This document shows, in pieces, positions 40,191-55,299 of a stretch of 64,000 bases of DNA. The notes below the pieces were generated by a model. The model saw only the letters and a program-made list of their open reading frames with translations, was not told where the DNA came from and ran no database searches. The translations under genes and the position numbers were made by a program. Position 1 is the first letter of the stretch. Every line of letters begins with the position of its first letter. Source of the DNA: Rhizobium leguminosarum (GTDB taxonomy: Bacteria > Pseudomonadota > Alphaproteobacteria > Rhizobiales > Rhizobiaceae); assembly GCF_017876795.1 (NCBI RefSeq), contig NZ_JAGIOR010000001.1:3746501-3810500 (forward strand). Reading direction: 5' to 3'.

Positions 40191-40333
40191 AAAGGGGGTC
40201 GGCCAGCATGCAAAACGGCACGAGGAACCGCTATAACTTGCCTACTAGCCGACCGACCCCACGACCCAGGAGATGCGGCGGACCTGAGCATCATGGGGTA
40301 TCGACAACTCCTCAACGGGAGCGCTTCTCTTAT
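40146..40333 (-). ncRNA. candidate structured small RNA
   Basis: The gap between convergent rpmG and pleD carries a complete minus-strand transcription unit without a reading frame. It has a promoter TTGATT (40364-40369), 18 bases, AATTAT (40340-40345), about 188 bases of transcript and an intrinsic terminator (40146-40190). The middle folds into a long arm: GGGGTC/GACCCC (40255-40260 with 40195-40200) plus 14 further positions with one mismatch (40237-40250 with 40201-40214). A second hairpin (40291-40299 with 40256-40264, 9 bp) uses the same bases and is mutually exclusive. I cannot match it to 6S, SRP, tmRNA or RNase P. Confidence 0.6.
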
Positions 40334-40795: not shown

Positions 40796-42169
40796 TCAGG
40801 CGGCTGCGGCGACCACACGGTTGCGGCCGGTATTCTTGGCCTCGTAAAGAGCCAGATCGGCCTGCTTCATAAGCTGGTCCGGGGTCAGCACCGCTGCAAT
40901 ACGCGAGGCGATGCCGAAGGACGCGGTGACGTTCAGCGCCTCACCGGCGTGTTTCAGCGTGAAGGGAGCGCTTTCGACCGCCGCGCGCAGGCGCTCGGCG
41001 ACAGCGGCGGCTATCTCAGGCGAGGTGTCGGGCATTACAACGACGAATTCCTCCCCGCCGTAGCGGCAGGCGAGATCGGCGCCGCGAATGGTCGAACGGA
41101 CGCGGTTTGCAAATTCCCGCAGCACATCGTCGCCGCCGTCATGGCCATAGGTATCGTTTACCTGCTTGAAGCGATCGATATCGGTGATCAGCACCGAAAG
41201 CGGCCGGCCTCGCGCCATTGACCGGTTGAAGAGCACGTTCAAATGATTATCGAGATAGCGCCGGTTATAGAGGCCGGTGAGCGGATCGGTTACCGCAAGC
41301 TCGATCGTCTGCTTGACGCTGGCGCGCAGACGGTCGTTGTAGCGCTTGCGGCGGATCTGCGTCAGGCTGCGGGCAACCAGCTCGTTGGGATCGACCGGGC
41401 GGATGATGTAGTCGTTGACGCCGAGATCGAGCGCGCGCACGACCATCTCGTCAGCGACCTGCTCGGTGATGATCAAGATCGGCAGGAAGCGCGTGCGCTC
41501 CAGCGAGCGCAACTGCGAGCAGAGGCGAAGCGGATCGTAATCGTCGAAATTGGCGTTGACGATGACGAGATCAAACGCGCTTTCGGCCGCCTCGAAGAGG
41601 GCGGCCTGCGGATCGGAGAGGGCAAGCACGTCGGCAACGGGCTTCAACGCCCTGATGAGGCGCTCCTGCGAATTGGCGCGGCCGTCGACGAGCAGGACCT
41701 GCGCGGTCTCGTCGGCGCGGCCCTCGCCTGCCCGCGTGAGGTCGTCGATGCCCATCGTATGGGCGGTGTCGGCGCGAATGCGCAACTCGTCGCTCAACGT
41801 CTTCAACCGCAGCAGGCTCTTTACCCGTGAGATCAGCTGCAGATCGTTGACCGGTTTGGTGAGGAAATCATCGGCGCCAGCCTTCAGGCCGCGCACGCGA
41901 TCGGCCGGCTGGTCGAGCGCGGTGACCATGACGACAGGAATATGCGCGGTCTTCTGGCTGGCCTTCAGCCGCTCGCAGACCTCGAAACCATCAATGCCGG
42001 GCATCATGATATCGAGCAGGATGAGATCGACCTGGTTGCGCTCACAGATCGCCAGCGCCGTGTAGCCGTCGGCCGCGGTCATGACGTCGAAATACTCCGC
42101 CAGCAGCCGCGCTTCGAGCAGCTTCACATTGGCCGGAATATCGTCCACCACCAGTATTCGCGCAGTCAT
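40796..42169 (-). CDS. pleD: response regulator / diguanylate cyclase PleD
   Basis: Makes the second messenger c-di-GMP and drives the motile-to-sessile transition in Caulobacter. It has 457 residues in the order REC-REC-GGDEF. REC1 has phospho-acceptor Asp in LILLDIMMPG (about 53) and Lys in FLTKPVN. REC2 (about 155-270) has lost its Asp (VIVNANFDD), as expected for the adaptor domain. The cyclase domain shows RYGGEEFVVV with the inhibitory I-site RGAD five residues before it. It lies 18 bases after divK, the standard divK-pleD operon. Confidence 0.97.
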   Translation of the reverse strand: MTARILVVDDIPANVKLLEARLLAEYFDVMTAADGYTALAICERNQVDLILLDIMMPGIDGFEVCERLKASQKTAHIPVVMVTALDQPADRVRGLKAGADDFLTKPVNDLQLISRVKSLLRLKTLSDELRIRADTAHTMGIDDLTRAGEGRADETAQVLLVDGRANSQERLIRALKPVADVLALSDPQAALFEAAESAFDLVIVNANFDDYDPLRLCSQLRSLERTRFLPILIITEQVADEMVVRALDLGVNDYIIRPVDPNELVARSLTQIRRKRYNDRLRASVKQTIELAVTDPLTGLYNRRYLDNHLNVLFNRSMARGRPLSVLITDIDRFKQVNDTYGHDGGDDVLREFANRVRSTIRGADLACRYGGEEFVVVMPDTSPEIAAAVAERLRAAVESAPFTLKHAGEALNVTASFGIASRIAAVLTPDQLMKQADLALYEAKNTGRNRVVAAAA

Positions 42170-46963: not shown

Positions 46964-47000
46964 GATCACCCAGGTTTGATCACCATCAGCCGGGGTGATC
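46964..47000. repeat. hairpin between L,D-transpeptidase and dnaE
   Basis: GATCACCC and GGGTGATC arms (46964-46971 with 46993-47000) overlap the dnaE stop, among several TGATCAC copies. No T-run. It may protect the converging transcripts' 3' ends. Confidence 0.35.
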
Positions 47001-50000
47001 AGACAAGCTCGACATCGACGACACCGGGGGCGGCGCGAAGAGCGGCGGCGATCTCCGGGGTGATGCGGTATTTCTCCGCCAGCGCCACTTCCACCTCACG
47101 TTTGCCCTCCTCCTTGATGACGATGAAGGACACGAGGCCGTCGCCCTTGGCGTTGAGATGGCCGGCGACCATCTTCAGCGGTCCGGAATCGCGGACATAG
47201 ACGCGCAGCGCCTTCTGCATCTGCAGCGACTTTTCCTCCAGCGACTGGATCGTCTGGATGCGCAGGCCGATGCCCTCCGGCCGCTCCTCGCCGGTCGCGG
47301 TCAGCACGAAGGATTTTCCCGACTCCAGCACGTCGCGATACTGGTTGAGCATTTCCGAAAACAGCACCGCCTCGAACTGGCCGGAGGAATCGGAAAAGAC
47401 GATGATGCCCATCTTGTTGCCGGTGCGGGTCTTGCGCTCCTGCTTCGAAATGACGGTGCCGGCGAGGCGCGCATTGAAGGCGCCCTGTTTGATCGCTTGG
47501 GAAAACTCGGCAAAGGTCTGCACCCGCATCTTCTGCAGGAGGTTGTTGTAGGAATCGAGCGGGTGGGCTGTGAGATAGAAGCCCAACACCTGGAATTCCT
47601 TGAGCAGCCGCTCCGAGGCAAGCCAGGGCGAGAACGGCGGCAGGGAGATTTTTTCCGGCCCCGAGGTCAGGGTGCTGCCGAAAATATCCGACTGGCCGCT
47701 CAGCTTGTTCTCCTGGGCGCGCTGGGCATAACCGAGGATACGGTCGAGGCCGGCCGAAAGCTGGGCGCGGTCGGTGCCGAAACAATCGAAGGCGCCGGCA
47801 AAGATCAGGCTTTCGAGCACACGGCGATTGACCTGGCGCGGATCGATGCGCAGGCAGAAATCCTCGATGCCGGCAAAAGGCTTATCGCCACGCACCTCGA
47901 CGATATGGTCGACGGCGGATTCGCCGACGCCCTTGAGGGCGGCGAGCGCATAATAGATGCGGTTGTCGCCGGTCTGGAAATGGCGGAAGGAGGTCTGCAC
48001 CGAGGGTGCGATTACCTCGATGCCGAGGCGTTTGGCATCCTGGCGGAAATCGTTGACCTTTTCGGTGTTGGACATGTCGAGCGTCATCGAGGCGGCGAGG
48101 AATTCGACCGGATAATGCGCCTTCATATAGGCCGTCTGGTAGGAGACGATGGCGTAGGCGGCGGCATGCGACTTGTTGAAGCCGTAATTGGCGAACTTCG
48201 CCAGCAACTCGAAGATATTGTCGGCTTGCGGCTTCGATACGCCATTCTTGACCGCACCGACGACGAAGCGTTCGCGCTGCTGGTCCATCTCGGCCTTGAT
48301 CTTTTTGCCCATGGCGCGGCGCAGAAGATCGGCTTCTCCGAGCGAGTAACCGGACAGGACCTGGGCGATCTGCATCACCTGTTCCTGGTAGACGATGACC
48401 CCCTGGGTTTCCTTGAGCAAGTGGTCGATCATCGGATGGATCGATTCCAGCTCTTCTTCACCGTGCTTGCGGGCATTGTAGGTCGGGATGTTCTCCATCG
48501 GGCCTGGGCGATAGAGCGCCACGAGGGCGATAATGTCCTCGATGCAGTCCGGCTTCATGCCGATCAGCGCCTTGCGCATGCCGGCACTTTCCACCTGAAA
48601 CACGCCGACCGTCTCGCCGCGCGACAGCATCTCGTAAGTCTTCTTATCGTCGAGAGGAATGGCAGCGAGATCGACCTTGACGCCGAGCTTGGCGACAAAA
48701 TCGACCGCGACCTTCAGCACTGTCAGCGTCTTTAGGCCGAGGAAGTCGAACTTGACGAGGCCGGCCTGCTCCACCCACTTCATGTTGAACTGGGTGACCG
48801 GCATGTCCGAGCGCGGATCGCGATACATCGGCACCAGCTTGGAAAGCGGGCGGTCGCCGATGACGATGCCGGCGGCATGCGTCGAGGCATGGCGGTAAAG
48901 CCCCTCGATCTTCTGGGCAATGTCGAGCAGGCGGGAGACGACCGGCTCCTTGGCCGCCTCTTCCTGCAGCTTCGGCTCCTCCTCGATCGCTTTGGACAGC
49001 GGCGTCGGATTGGCCGGATTGTTCGGTACGAGTTTGCAGATCTTGTCGACCTGGCCGTAGGGCATTTCCAGCACGCGGCCGACGTCGCGAAGGGCGGCGC
49101 GCGCCTGCAGCGAACCGAAGGTGATGATCTGCGCCACCTGCTCGCGGCCATACTTGGCCTGGACGTAGCGGATCACCTCTTCGCGGCGGTCCTGGCAGAA
49201 GTCGATGTCGAAGTCCGGCATCGAAACGCGTTCCGGATTGAGGAAGCGCTCGAAGAGCAGCGAAAACCGCAGCGGATCGACGTCAGTGATCGTCAAGGCG
49301 TAGGCGACCAGCGAACCGGCGCCCGAACCGCGGCCCGGGCCGACCGGAATGTCCTGCTGCTTGGCCCATTTGATGAAGTCGGCAACGATCAGGAAGTAAC
49401 CGGGAAAACGCATGCGCTCGATGACGCTGAGTTCAAAATCCAGTCGCTCGCGATATTCCTTTTCCTCGTAACCCGGCGACATGCCGAGCGTCGAAAGCCG
49501 CATGTCCAGCCCTTCGACTGCCTGGCGGCGCAGTTCGCTTGCCTCGGCGCGTTCGGCCTCCTCGGCGTCGTCGGTCGCACCGGTGAAGCGCGGCAGGATC
49601 GGCTTTCGCGTCTTCAGCACGAAGGAGCAACGCTTGGCGATCTCAATGGTGTTTTCCAGCGCTTCCGGCAGGTCGGCGAAGAGCTTGGCCATCTCGGCCC
49701 GGCTCTTCAGATAGTGGTCCGGCGTCAGGCGAAAGCGGCTGTCGTCGGAGACGATGGCGTTGTGGGCGACCGCCATCAGCGCATCATGGGCGTCGTAATC
49801 GTCGCGTGTCGGAAAGAAGGCCTCGTTGGTCGCAACCAGCGGCAGGTCGTTGGCATAGGCGAGCCCGACGATCTTCTGCTCGTGCCGCTTGTCGTAGGTT
49901 CCGTGGCGCTGCAGCTCGACATAGAGCCGGTCGCCGAAGAGACGCTTCAGCGCAAGCAGCCGGACTTCCGCCTGGGCGGGATGGCCTTCCTTGATCGCCA

Positions 50001-50496
50001 CATCGACAGGCCCGGTCAGGGCGCCGGTCAAGGCGATCAGCCCTTCCGTGCCGGCCTCCTCCAACCAGGAGGCATTGATATGGATGGCCTGGTTGCTTTC
50101 GCCGCCGAGATAGGCGCGGCTGACGAGATCGACGAGCCGTTCGTAACCGGCATCGGTGGCGGCGAGAAGAACGATCGACGGCAGCTTGACCAGGGCCTGC
50201 TGGCCGCCGCGCTTTTCCGTTTCCAGCCCGTCTTCCATGTCGATCGAGACCTGGCAGCCGATGATCGGCTGCAGGCCCTCGTCCATCGCTTTCTGGGAGA
50301 ATTCCAGCGCGATGAACAGATTGTTGGTGTCGGTAATGGCGATCGCCGGCTGGCTGTCGCCGGTCGCCTTGTAAAGGATCTTCTTCAGCGGCAAGGCGCC
50401 TTCGAGAAGCGAATAGGCGGAGTGGACCCTCAGGTGGATGAAGCCCGGCGTGCCGCCGGTCACCTCAGCCGTTGAACCCTTTGCCGTATCCGCCAT
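46999..50496 (-). CDS. dnaE: DNA polymerase III alpha subunit
   Basis: Replicative polymerase, 1165 residues from ATG 50496 (MADTAKGSTAEVTGGTP); a start at 50511 would add five residues. The PHP domain begins FIHLRVHSAYSLLEGALPLK. The catalytic palm has PVGPGRGSGAGSLVAYALTI and VSMPDFDIDFCQDRR with the essential DxD. The beta-clamp region and OB-fold (about 980-1070) follow. It is upstream of the SOS-box peptide gene's 3' end but has no box of its own, so it is the housekeeping DnaE1, not the SOS DnaE2. Confidence 0.97.
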   Translation of the reverse strand: MADTAKGSTAEVTGGTPGFIHLRVHSAYSLLEGALPLKKILYKATGDSQPAIAITDTNNLFIALEFSQKAMDEGLQPIIGCQVSIDMEDGLETEKRGGQQALVKLPSIVLLAATDAGYERLVDLVSRAYLGGESNQAIHINASWLEEAGTEGLIALTGALTGPVDVAIKEGHPAQAEVRLLALKRLFGDRLYVELQRHGTYDKRHEQKIVGLAYANDLPLVATNEAFFPTRDDYDAHDALMAVAHNAIVSDDSRFRLTPDHYLKSRAEMAKLFADLPEALENTIEIAKRCSFVLKTRKPILPRFTGATDDAEEAERAEASELRRQAVEGLDMRLSTLGMSPGYEEKEYRERLDFELSVIERMRFPGYFLIVADFIKWAKQQDIPVGPGRGSGAGSLVAYALTITDVDPLRFSLLFERFLNPERVSMPDFDIDFCQDRREEVIRYVQAKYGREQVAQIITFGSLQARAALRDVGRVLEMPYGQVDKICKLVPNNPANPTPLSKAIEEEPKLQEEAAKEPVVSRLLDIAQKIEGLYRHASTHAAGIVIGDRPLSKLVPMYRDPRSDMPVTQFNMKWVEQAGLVKFDFLGLKTLTVLKVAVDFVAKLGVKVDLAAIPLDDKKTYEMLSRGETVGVFQVESAGMRKALIGMKPDCIEDIIALVALYRPGPMENIPTYNARKHGEEELESIHPMIDHLLKETQGVIVYQEQVMQIAQVLSGYSLGEADLLRRAMGKKIKAEMDQQRERFVVGAVKNGVSKPQADNIFELLAKFANYGFNKSHAAAYAIVSYQTAYMKAHYPVEFLAASMTLDMSNTEKVNDFRQDAKRLGIEVIAPSVQTSFRHFQTGDNRIYYALAALKGVGESAVDHIVEVRGDKPFAGIEDFCLRIDPRQVNRRVLESLIFAGAFDCFGTDRAQLSAGLDRILGYAQRAQENKLSGQSDIFGSTLTSGPEKISLPPFSPWLASERLLKEFQVLGFYLTAHPLDSYNNLLQKMRVQTFAEFSQAIKQGAFNARLAGTVISKQERKTRTGNKMGIIVFSDSSGQFEAVLFSEMLNQYRDVLESGKSFVLTATGEERPEGIGLRIQTIQSLEEKSLQMQKALRVYVRDSGPLKMVAGHLNAKGDGLVSFIVIKEEGKREVEVALAEKYRITPEIAAALRAAPGVVDVELV

Positions 50497-50578: not shown

Positions 50579-50603
50579 GGACCGCATGATTGCCATGCGG
50601 TCC
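50579..50603 (-). terminator. hairpin after the 28-aa gene
   Basis: A perfect 10-bp stem GGACCGCATG/CATGCGGTCC with a 5-base loop starts 11 bases past the peptide stop on the minus strand. There is no U-run, so it may be an attenuating or stabilising 3' end before dnaE. Confidence 0.5.
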
Positions 50604-50613
50604 CCTGAAAACT

Positions 50614-50700
50614 TTAGATTGCCATGACGATGAGCGAGAAGCTGGCAACGAACATTGCGATGGAGGTGAATGCTGCGATATCACGGATCATGTCAGTCAT
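50614..50700 (-). CDS. 28-aa SOS-box-linked membrane peptide
   Basis: ATG 50700 (MTDMIRDIAAFTSIAMFVAS) has GGAGAG four bases upstream and the frame stops at TAA 50614-50616. It is a single hydrophobic helix after a charged N-terminus (D3, R6, D7). The promoter TTGACA (50752-50757) is followed by a perfect LexA box in the spacer. Size, membrane helix and SOS control parallel Caulobacter SidA (29 aa, division inhibitor) and E. coli TisB (29 aa, membrane toxin). I claim analogy only, as the sequence does not let me show homology. No antisense RNA was seen. Confidence 0.65.
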   Translation of the reverse strand: MTDMIRDIAAFTSIAMFVASFSLIVMAI

Positions 50701-50733
50701 TTGGCTCTCCTTTACTCGTTATGTTTTTAATTT

Positions 50734-50748
50734 GTTCGATGTTTGTTC
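50734..50748 (-). promoter_or_regulatory. LexA (SOS) box of the 28-aa gene
   Basis: A perfect GTTC-GATGTTT-GTTC (GAAC-N7-GAAC on the minus strand). It lies in the spacer between -35 TTGACA (50752-50757) and a weak -10 (about 50728-50733), an ideal site for repression. Confidence 0.75.
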
Positions 50749-50934
50749 CCTTGTCAACAGGAATCTTTTCCTTCTTTCTTCCTTCGAAAAATCCCAGGTC
50801 GCGCGTTGCGACTCGGAAGGGACCGGTACGCGATCCGATCGGCGGCTCGTGTCCTTTCCCCGTCCGCGACAGGCAGGACATGGCGCTCGGCCTGCCGACC
50901 TCCTCTCAAAGCGACCCGCTTAACTCCAGTCTTT

Positions 50935-50949
50935 GTTCTCTTTTCGTTC
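50935..50949 (+). promoter_or_regulatory. LexA (SOS) box upstream of the DUF5680 gene
   Basis: A perfect GTTC-TCTTTTC-GTTC, 49 bases before the ATG at 50999. A clear -35/-10 pair was not identified, but the box is in the only gap available for that gene's promoter. Confidence 0.65.
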
Positions 50950-50998: not shown

Positions 50999-51463
50999 AT
51001 GCTCGACATTGCGACGCTAAACGAATTCATCGTGGAGGCGAAGGCTGCGACCTATGTCGGCGGCGGCGTGCCGCGCGCGCCCTGCCGGCCGGGTGCCCAC
51101 GATATCGGCTATGAGCGCGGCGACTGGCGCTATCTCGACAGCTATTTCGGCGGCACCGATTTCGCCGGACAGGAGGTAGTGTGGTTTGCCGGCGAGCCCG
51201 TCTGGGTGATGAACTATTTCGGTTGGATCGTCGCACCAGATCTCATCGACGGCGCTGCCGCCGGAGCAGTGATCAAGGCGGCACTTTCAGCCATGTATCG
51301 GCAGGGCCGCTTTCTCGGCGGAATGGAATTCGATCATCCAACCGGCCGCTATCTCGACCGCAGCGAAGGCGGTTGCGAGCGGTTCAGCGGCCATGAATGC
51401 ATCATGGTCGACGGCCAGAAGGCCTATATGCTCGATTATCGCGGCGGGCTGGTCATCCCGTAA
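50999..51463 (+). CDS. DUF5680 family protein
   Basis: 154 residues from ATG 50999 (MLDIATLNEFIVEAKAATYV) with AAGAGGAGAA upstream. HDIGYERGDWRYLDSYFGGTDFAGQEVVW and EPVWVMNYFGW are typical of DUF5680, a cytoplasmic family of unknown function. The LexA box suggests DNA-damage induction. It is convergent with lolD. Confidence 0.8.
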   Translation: MLDIATLNEFIVEAKAATYVGGGVPRAPCRPGAHDIGYERGDWRYLDSYFGGTDFAGQEVVWFAGEPVWVMNYFGWIVAPDLIDGAAAGAVIKAALSAMYRQGRFLGGMEFDHPTGRYLDRSEGGCERFSGHECIMVDGQKAYMLDYRGGLVIP

Positions 51464-51531: not shown

Positions 51532-52215
51532 CTAGAAATCGACGACCTTGCCATCCGCGATCGTCACGCGCCGATCCATGCGACGGGCGAGTTCATGATT
51601 GTGGGTGGCGATGAGGGCCGCGAGGCCGGACTGGCGCACCAGCGCCTCCAGCGCATCGAAGACGTAACTTGCCGTTTCCGGGTCGAGGTTGCCGGTTGGC
51701 TCGTCGGCAAGAAGCAAGCTCGGCGCATTGGCGACGGCGCGGGCGATCGCAACGCGCTGCTGCTCGCCGCCGGAAAGCTCGCCCGGGCGATGGGCGCCAC
51801 GATGGCCGATGCGCATATAATCGAGAAGCTGGCCGGCCCGCTCGCCGGCTTCCTTCCAGGACAGCCCGGCGATCAGCTGCGGCATCATGATGTTCTCGAG
51901 TGCGGAAAATTCCGGCAGCAGGTGGTGGAATTGATAGACGAAGCCGATTTCGCTGCGGCGGATCGCGGTACGTTTTTCGTCTGAAAGGCCGTCGCAGGCA
52001 TGGCCGTTGATGCTGACTTCACCGCCATCGGGATGTTCCAAGAGGCCGGCGACATGCAGCAGGGTCGACTTGCCGGTGCCGGAGGGAGCAACGAGAGCGA
52101 CGATCTCGCCTTTCGACAGCGAGAAATCCGCGCTCTTCAGGATCGGGAGCAGCGTATCGCCCTGCCCGTAATGGCGCTCGACGCCGGTAAGCTTGAGAAC
52201 GACGTTGCGTTTCAT
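51532..52215 (-). CDS. lolD: lipoprotein-releasing ABC transporter ATPase LolD
   Basis: Powers extraction of outer-membrane lipoproteins from the inner membrane. It has 227 residues. Walker A is [12 protein letters not shown], the signature [14 protein letters not shown], Walker [13 protein letters not shown], and the switch His is in ATHNHELA. It is 14 bases after lolC on the same strand, forming the LolCD complex. Confidence 0.95.
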
Positions 52216-55099: not shown

Positions 55100-55299
55100 G
55101 CAAAAATGCAAAAAAAGCTGATGACAAAGCCCAATGTTTGAGCTAGCTTTAGCTCACAAAACAGGCAAGAGAGATAAATTCTTGCCAAATTCGCGGTCAA
55201 GTCTTGGGAGGATCAGATCTTAGGCGCGCTCGTCGCTGCCCCGGCAACGGTTACAGATCACGCGATACTTAAAACAAGGCTTTTAGCCTTGTTTTTTTT
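55100..55299 (+). ncRNA. candidate small RNA in the AT-rich proS-DUF1467 gap
   Basis: The 591-base gap 54873-55463 is far more AT-rich than its surroundings. On the plus strand it holds, in order, GAGCTA/TAGCTC (55140-55155), GGCAAGA/TCTTGCC (55164-55186) and an intrinsic terminator (55271-55299). No reading frame is supported. A plus-strand transcript divergent from proS and ending at that terminator is likely; no clear promoter was found, so the 5' end is a guess. Confidence 0.45.
55271..55299 (+). terminator. strong plus-strand intrinsic terminator
   Basis: AAAACAAGGCT/AGCCTTGTTTT (55271-55281 with 55285-55295) runs on to TTTTTTTT. Neither neighbour is a plus-strand gene (proS and DUF1467 are both minus), so it implies an unannotated plus transcript. 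It also faces a shorter A-run on the left and may work in both directions. Confidence 0.8.

Follow-up and report, generated by a model that had tools for sequence, protein, structure and literature searches.

A LexA-boxed 28-residue peptide upstream of dnaE in Rhizobium leguminosarum as a probable diverged relative of the cell division inhibitor SidA

Upstream of the dnaE gene of Rhizobium leguminosarum, within the window analysed here (the whole stretch of 64,000 nucleotides, contig NZ_JAGIOR010000001.1), a 28-codon reading frame stands behind a promoter with a predicted LexA operator. The locus raises the question of whether this short frame is a gene and, if so, what kind of peptide the SOS response would release from it. 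The elements on which the answer depends, all on the minus strand, are the following:

46999..50496, minus strand: dnaE (DNA polymerase III alpha; NF004226, 1504 bits), the next gene downstream of the frame
50561-50533, minus strand: promoter-like site nearer dnaE (9/12 match), which may serve dnaE
50579..50603, minus strand: perfect 10-bp hairpin, GGACCGCATG/CATGCGGTCC, directly past the peptide stop
50614..50700, minus strand: unbroken 28-codon sidA-like frame, translation MTDMIRDIAAFTSIAMFVASFSLIVMAI plus stop
50705..50710, minus strand: ribosome-binding site GGAGAG, 4 nt ahead of the ATG, read from the sequence
50723..50726, minus strand: third operator half-site AAAC, 11 bp past the second half-site (predicted; overlapping double operator)
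50728..50734, minus strand: weak -10 region CAAATT/AAATTA, inferred from the 17-18 nt spacing
50734..50748, minus strand: LexA box GAAC-N7-GAAC (GTTC-N7-GTTC on the plus strand), a perfect pattern match and a predicted site
50752..50757, minus strand: -35 element TTGACA, read from the sequence, with TTGAC in 60/60 same-genus loci
51532..52215, minus strand: lolD-like ABC ATPase, the nearest same-strand gene upstream of the frame and a second synteny marker

The product would be a peptide of 28 residues with one membrane helix, as judged from hydrophobicity. Both the frame with its ribosome-binding site GGAGAG and its place beside dnaE had been claimed in the initial annotation, and both are borne out, dnaE following on the same strand after a gap of 117 bp. 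Upstream of the peptide, a divergent DUF5680 gene comes before the lolD and lolC/E-like genes, which are on the peptide's strand. The window peptide matches no Pfam family and 0 NCBIfam families, at E<=1 as well as at E<=10; at Rfam gathering thresholds no RNA family was detected at the peptide locus. Searches of phage DNA gave 0 matches, and the plasmid collection gave one, a Shinella record of 4.6 Mb. A gene of this size is easily overlooked by gene annotation. The hairpin past the stop has no U tract; a similar hairpin is present in 11 of the 18 same-genus loci examined, missing from the remaining 7, and absent from the 16 other-genus loci shown. Not being a general feature, it was set aside.

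Comparison within the genus shows that the frame is not a chance one. A DNA match, one stretch per genome, was found in 60/60 same-genus genomes (the own one included), the weakest matches spanning about the promoter, leader and frame, and the 28 codons were unbroken in every one of these genomes. Over 46 distinct nucleotide haplotypes of the frame, dN/dS amounts to 0.116; third codon positions vary in 27 of the 28 codons, first positions in 12 and second positions in 4. The mean column identity (ungapped) falls from 0.90 within the frame to 0.71 over the 66 bp ahead of it and 0.39 further upstream; downstream it amounts to 0.54. Judged from this substitution pattern, the peptide is under purifying selection. 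A purine-rich ribosome-binding site is also seen in the aligned loci. The initial annotation had named conservation across related genomes as a check on its proposal of an SOS-controlled one-helix peptide; the frame and start (60/60 in the genus), the ribosome-binding site and the box (perfect in 59/60) are all kept, and the proposal is supported at the level of sequence.

The box itself calls for caution. The window contains 7 matches to the box pattern vs 1.96 expected from shuffles, and the genome 234 matches vs 155 for the pattern read backwards; by these counts a single box is weak evidence and not significant. It is raised above chance by its conservation across the same-genus genomes: a perfect box lies at most 75 bp upstream of the frame in 59/60 loci and, at the main register, the box is perfect in 57/60 and has one mismatch in 3/60. 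When the 54 distinct promoters of the genus are lined up by their boxes, they read TTGAC-N4-GAAC-N7-GAAC-N7-(A/G)AAC-ATAA. The third half-site in this arrangement, (A/G)AAC, was missing from the earlier description; it is present in all 54 of these promoters and in 46/63 distinct promoters from other genera, taking the full form GAAC in 2/54 and 16/63, respectively, and in the operator of Sinorhizobium meliloti all three half-sites are GAAC. We read the three half-sites as two overlapping candidate LexA operators. The combination of TTGACA with a perfect LexA box, as claimed initially, is thus upheld by the sequence and its conservation in the genus. The box had also been placed between -35 and -10 elements; the box and the -35 stand, but the -10 is weak, and the list produced by the consensus promoter scan does not include the peptide promoter.

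The distribution of the peptide was followed with three profiles, A1 built from same-genus peptides, A2 being a wider profile of 41 relatives, and A3 comprising six Caulobacterales peptides. The A1 search revealed relatives in 68/199 genomes of the family, representing 36/109 genera with the own genus included. Among the 70 family loci that were opened, dnaE follows on the same strand, inside the flank covered, in 64, the frame has exactly 28 codons in 62, and lolD is upstream in at least 41, the flanks being short; two of the 70 (L100 and L132) were rejected as chance. The stretch ahead of dnaE was inspected in 40 regions from genomes of the family, 3 of them from genomes whose A1 match lay elsewhere: 8 carried a box with a diverged 28-residue relative, in 2 the box was accompanied by another small frame, and 30 were without a box-peptide unit. 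At two dnaE-upstream loci, L167 and L169 (genomes G227 and G154), a TTGAC and box promoter precedes a different hydrophobic frame of 22 residues (MEFISCLIWF...), possibly a replacement or a misread frame. In the order, the A2 search retrieved 48/249 genomes at E<=0.01; from the best 30 of these 48 loci, the 27 outside the genus were opened. The box is perfect in 24 of these and has a single mismatch in 3, and dnaE lies downstream in 21. Positions D7, S13 and F17 are nearly invariant in this order-wide family. Many genomes of the order, then, though not every one, have a boxed relative ahead of dnaE, and lolD often precedes it. Six Pfam families that each matched one of the 41 A2 members (best E 0.0012, DUF3953) were taken as chance. 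A pattern of conservation along one helical face, for which four variants of a permutation test gave p 0.02, 0.04, 0.05 and 0.12, was no more than suggestive and was set aside.

Relatives are found in the named records of S. meliloti, Sinorhizobium sp. K101 and Shinella, and the DnaE proteins of S. meliloti and Shinella are 84% and 82% identical to that of the window. The S. meliloti relative, also of 28 residues (MADFVRDLAAFASMSLFIVSISVIALGL), sits between lolD and dnaE. CP090106.1, the record for S. meliloti, bears the title pSymB but contains dnaE, and it therefore looks like a mislabelled chromosome; its CDS list, which may be incomplete, does not include the peptide. A class-wide peptide search matched 3/289 genomes, namely the own one and two from outside the order (L206 and L207), which have neither box nor dnaE and were rejected as chance. 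Consequently, sequence similarity alone reaches no further than the order.

Position reaches further. We examined the regions upstream of dnaE in 20 genomes of the class and in the 29 named genomes, of 30, in which dnaE was present. A box with a small hydrophobic frame was found in 10/20 of the class genomes. In four genomes of Caulobacter and two each of Phenylobacterium and Brevundimonas, a peptide of 29-31 residues (starting with GTG in one of the Caulobacter) stands at this place behind a box with at most one mismatch, and a third Brevundimonas has a box and a profile match; Devosia, Methylorubrum, Methylobacterium oryzihabitans, Bosea and Marinicaulis have a box and a small hydrophobic frame. 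By the same filter, no box-frame unit was found upstream of dnaE in Hyphomonas, Henriciella, Azospirillum, Niveispirillum, Rubritepida, Roseomonas, Belnapia, Tianweitania, Chelativorans, Hyphomicrobium and Methylobacterium sp. W2. In Pleomorphomonas (L318), a promoter with TTGAC and a perfect box lies ~494 bp before dnaE, and no small hydrophobic frame there passes the filter. Under strict criteria, a box with a small hydrophobic frame upstream of dnaE was present in 20/49 regions vs 0/49 on the opposite strand. Control loci around PleD, which are richer in coding sequence than the dnaE upstream regions, gave 0 units in 428,342 strand-bases with 9 perfect boxes.

The peptide of Caulobacterales at this place has a name. 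All six A3 members match the NCBIfam model NF033228, cell division inhibitor SidA, the first of them with 74 bits at a cut-off of 35. The A3 search detected one copy in 8/10 Caulobacterales genomes and missed the more diverged candidate of Brevundimonas sp. Root1279 as well as a C. vibrioides metagenome-assembled genome (MAG). Since this MAG yielded no dnaE at 1e-200 and no peptide, SidA was observed in other Caulobacter. Published locus numbers for Caulobacter point the same way: sidA is given as CCNA_02004 (PMC10769358), dnaE as CC1926 and recN as CC1983 (PMC1839093), and recN also as CCNA_02062 (PMC12700426). As CC1983 equals CCNA_02062, an offset of 79, sidA should fall within about one gene of dnaE.

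Whether the rhizobial peptide is homologous to SidA was assessed by direct comparison of the profiles. Alignment of A2 with A3 by hhalign gave E 6.3e-6 and a probability of 85%, ungapped from Met1 over 21 columns. On A2, five Caulobacter and Phenylobacterium peptides scored 13.7-18.5 bits; with shuffling confined to the N-terminal part and the hydrophobic part separately, the score was reached by 0-1/2000 for the four of these five so shuffled, and by 2-4/2000 for the two Brevundimonas. In the reverse direction, the window peptide scored 8.3 bits on the Caulobacterales profile, a value reached by 0/500 shuffles of the same type. Compared one by one, the peptides show low similarity to this profile: scores of 34/42, the window's among them, were reached by at most 5% of shuffles, and 8/42 were not clearly above shuffles, S. 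meliloti's among them (67/500). Against homology also stands the chance frame L206, itself picked by the profile: among 1,043 pooled small hydrophobic frames it scored 19.4 bits on A2, above the Caulobacter peptides, and other unrelated frames reach 10.2 bits. Shuffles did as well on A2 for G669 (150/1000), Methylorubrum (176/1000), Bosea (109/1000) and Marinicaulis (26/1000); these scores are not convincing, and kinship in these four is therefore a matter of locus and box. The window peptide does not reach the 35-bit cut-off of NF033228, a model that just 3/41 relatives match, and weakly (best E 0.026), and it does not have W19 and M20, invariant in A3. The order-wide D7, S13 and F17 fall on positions kept in SidA as E7, S13 and F17.

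The window peptide thus shares with SidA the place immediately upstream of dnaE, a predicted LexA operator, a length of ~29 residues with one helix, and profile homology. We call it a putative diverged positional ortholog of SidA and keep it out of NF033228 membership, because the score of the SidA model is not reached. The initial annotation had likened the peptide to SidA in size, topology and SOS control with no homology at hand; position, operator and sequence now support such homology. It had expected a new checkpoint or toxin; given this homology, the peptide is less something of a new kind than a division inhibitor already known, in diverged form.

We consider it likely that the gene is a diverged sidA ortholog, repressed by LexA and released by damage, whose product halts the late divisome as SidA does. 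The frame, the selection on it, the operator, the locus and the homology on which this reading builds come from the DNA sequence. The two overlapping candidate operators, with three half-sites of the GAAC type, lie between the -35 and the leader; LexA bound there would silence the gene in undamaged cells. Upon damage, activated RecA would bring about cleavage of LexA, and a short mRNA would be made and translated into the 28-residue peptide. By analogy with the Caulobacter work, from which damage induction, membrane insertion, the division block and the FtsW/FtsI/FtsN target are taken, the peptide would insert into the inner membrane as one helix, with the N-terminus presumably inside, and hold the late divisome (FtsW, FtsI, FtsN) inactive. 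Division would be held back, and the cells would not divide over damaged chromosomes. A wider scenario is possible, although we hold it as doubtful: rather than being peculiar to Caulobacter, SidA might be ancestral to much of the Alphaproteobacteria as their SOS division brake, placed near lolD and upstream of dnaE, with the triple half-site operator keeping basal expression near-silent and read-through into dnaE coupling division arrest to polymerase supply after damage.

The chief rival to the SidA reading is that the frame is a leader, an upstream ORF (uORF) which tunes dnaE during damage, the peptide itself doing little. As no U-tract terminator was found between the frame and dnaE, 117 bp downstream on the same strand, read-through into dnaE is possible. 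Ribosome profiling of S. meliloti, as reported, revealed a translated novel sORF25 in the 5'-UTR of dnaE1, and its authors suggest that 5'-UTR sORFs, with sORF25 of dnaE1 named, could be uORFs (PMC10117765); the main text of that paper holds neither 'SOS' nor 'LexA'. Judging from its place, sORF25 is probably the S. meliloti relative described above. Against a mere leader, the peptide is constrained at the amino-acid level, and the boxed peptide is kept without dnaE as the next gene in G221, G126 and G209 (L116, L129 and L130); dnaE is found ~1.8 kb off in G221, at another place of the contig in G126 and G209, and on other contigs in G131 and G212. Six g73 genomes (L181-L186) also keep the boxed peptide with no dnaE within the 1.5 kb shown. 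This persistence where dnaE is not the next gene weakens the leader explanation, the promoter-like site at 50561-50533 (minus) may serve dnaE, and SidA, which the peptide found here in Caulobacter matches, is itself an inhibitor; we therefore regard a leader function as unlikely.

TisB is a small, one-helix, SOS-controlled peptide whose mode of action is other than that of SidA, and toxins of the TisB/DinQ type are under antisense RNA control and cause loss of the membrane potential on expression. The window peptide resembles TisB in size, in having one helix and in its predicted SOS control, and could accordingly be a membrane toxin that responds to damage by bringing down the membrane potential and promoting dormancy. 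DinQ offers the same resemblance in the same three features (PMC3567139). Homology and locus point to SidA instead, none of the present results suggests a toxin of the TisB type, and Rfam at gathering thresholds reports no antisense RNA gene at this place; a toxin of this type seems very improbable. A SidA homolog could also have changed its target in this order, for instance to another membrane machine of polar growth: the C-terminal part is unlike SidA, and the hhalign alignment covers residues 1-21 only. Against this, the near-invariant D7, S13 and F17 fall on the SidA-kept E7, S13 and F17, and we give a changed target a slim chance.

Several other elements lie near the peptide gene. The divergent DUF5680 gene (50999-51463, plus strand) has a GTTC-N7-GTTC box of its own at 50935-50949 (plus), and a perfect box was found at most 120 bp upstream of DUF5680 in 29/30 same-genus loci with long flanks (L009-L038), that of L029-L032 being seemingly the peptide's own operator. 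On sequence, DUF5680 looks like a second SOS gene at the locus. A PleD-like two-receiver diguanylate cyclase (40796-42169, minus) adjoins the stress sRNA EcpR1 (40192-40301, minus), reported to modulate the alpha-rhizobial cell cycle (PMC4414408). A little past the lolCE-lolD-dnaE stretch, at 55156-55299 (plus), lies the alphaproteobacterial sRNA ar9 (RF02343, 135.8 bits). The DnaE-type polymerase domain PF07733 occurs at four places of the genome (contigs C1, C4 and C7 of G000), the dnaE of the window and three others.

Among the matches listed from open-licence literature, titles and abstract starts name no SOS division inhibitor of this order, nor do they name the relatives in rhizobia, the locus seen across the order or the operator with its three half-sites. 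SidA itself is already known. For S. meliloti and Rhizobium the locus offers a candidate gene for division arrest after DNA damage. It also suggests what a translated sORF of S. meliloti is likely to be, and it gives a case in which the SidA annotation model misses a relative, as well as a widely kept predicted LexA operator with three half-sites.

The closest known system is Caulobacter SidA (NF033228; CCNA_02004). It is described as a 29-aa inner-membrane peptide that acts on FtsW/FtsI/FtsN and as the main SOS division inhibitor of Caulobacter (PMC4211646), and deletion of lexA in Caulobacter is reported to cause extreme filamentation relieved by deletion of sidA (PMC12700426). Both genes are directly upstream of dnaE and LexA-boxed, and both encode 28-29 residues with one helix and the same spacing from Met1 of R6-(D/E)7, A10, S13 and F17-V18. 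Unlike SidA, the window peptide is below the NF033228 cut-off and without W19-M20; its gap to dnaE is 117 bp vs about 40 bp in Caulobacter BIN43, and the rhizobial promoter has a regular three-half-site operator. E. coli TisB and DinQ are SOS-controlled one-helix membrane peptides, as the window peptide is predicted to be, but they differ in mode of action. Caulobacter DidA is, as reported, also a small one-helix damage-induced inhibitor of the late divisome; in contrast, it has 71 aa, is SOS-independent and binds FtsN (PMC4211646).
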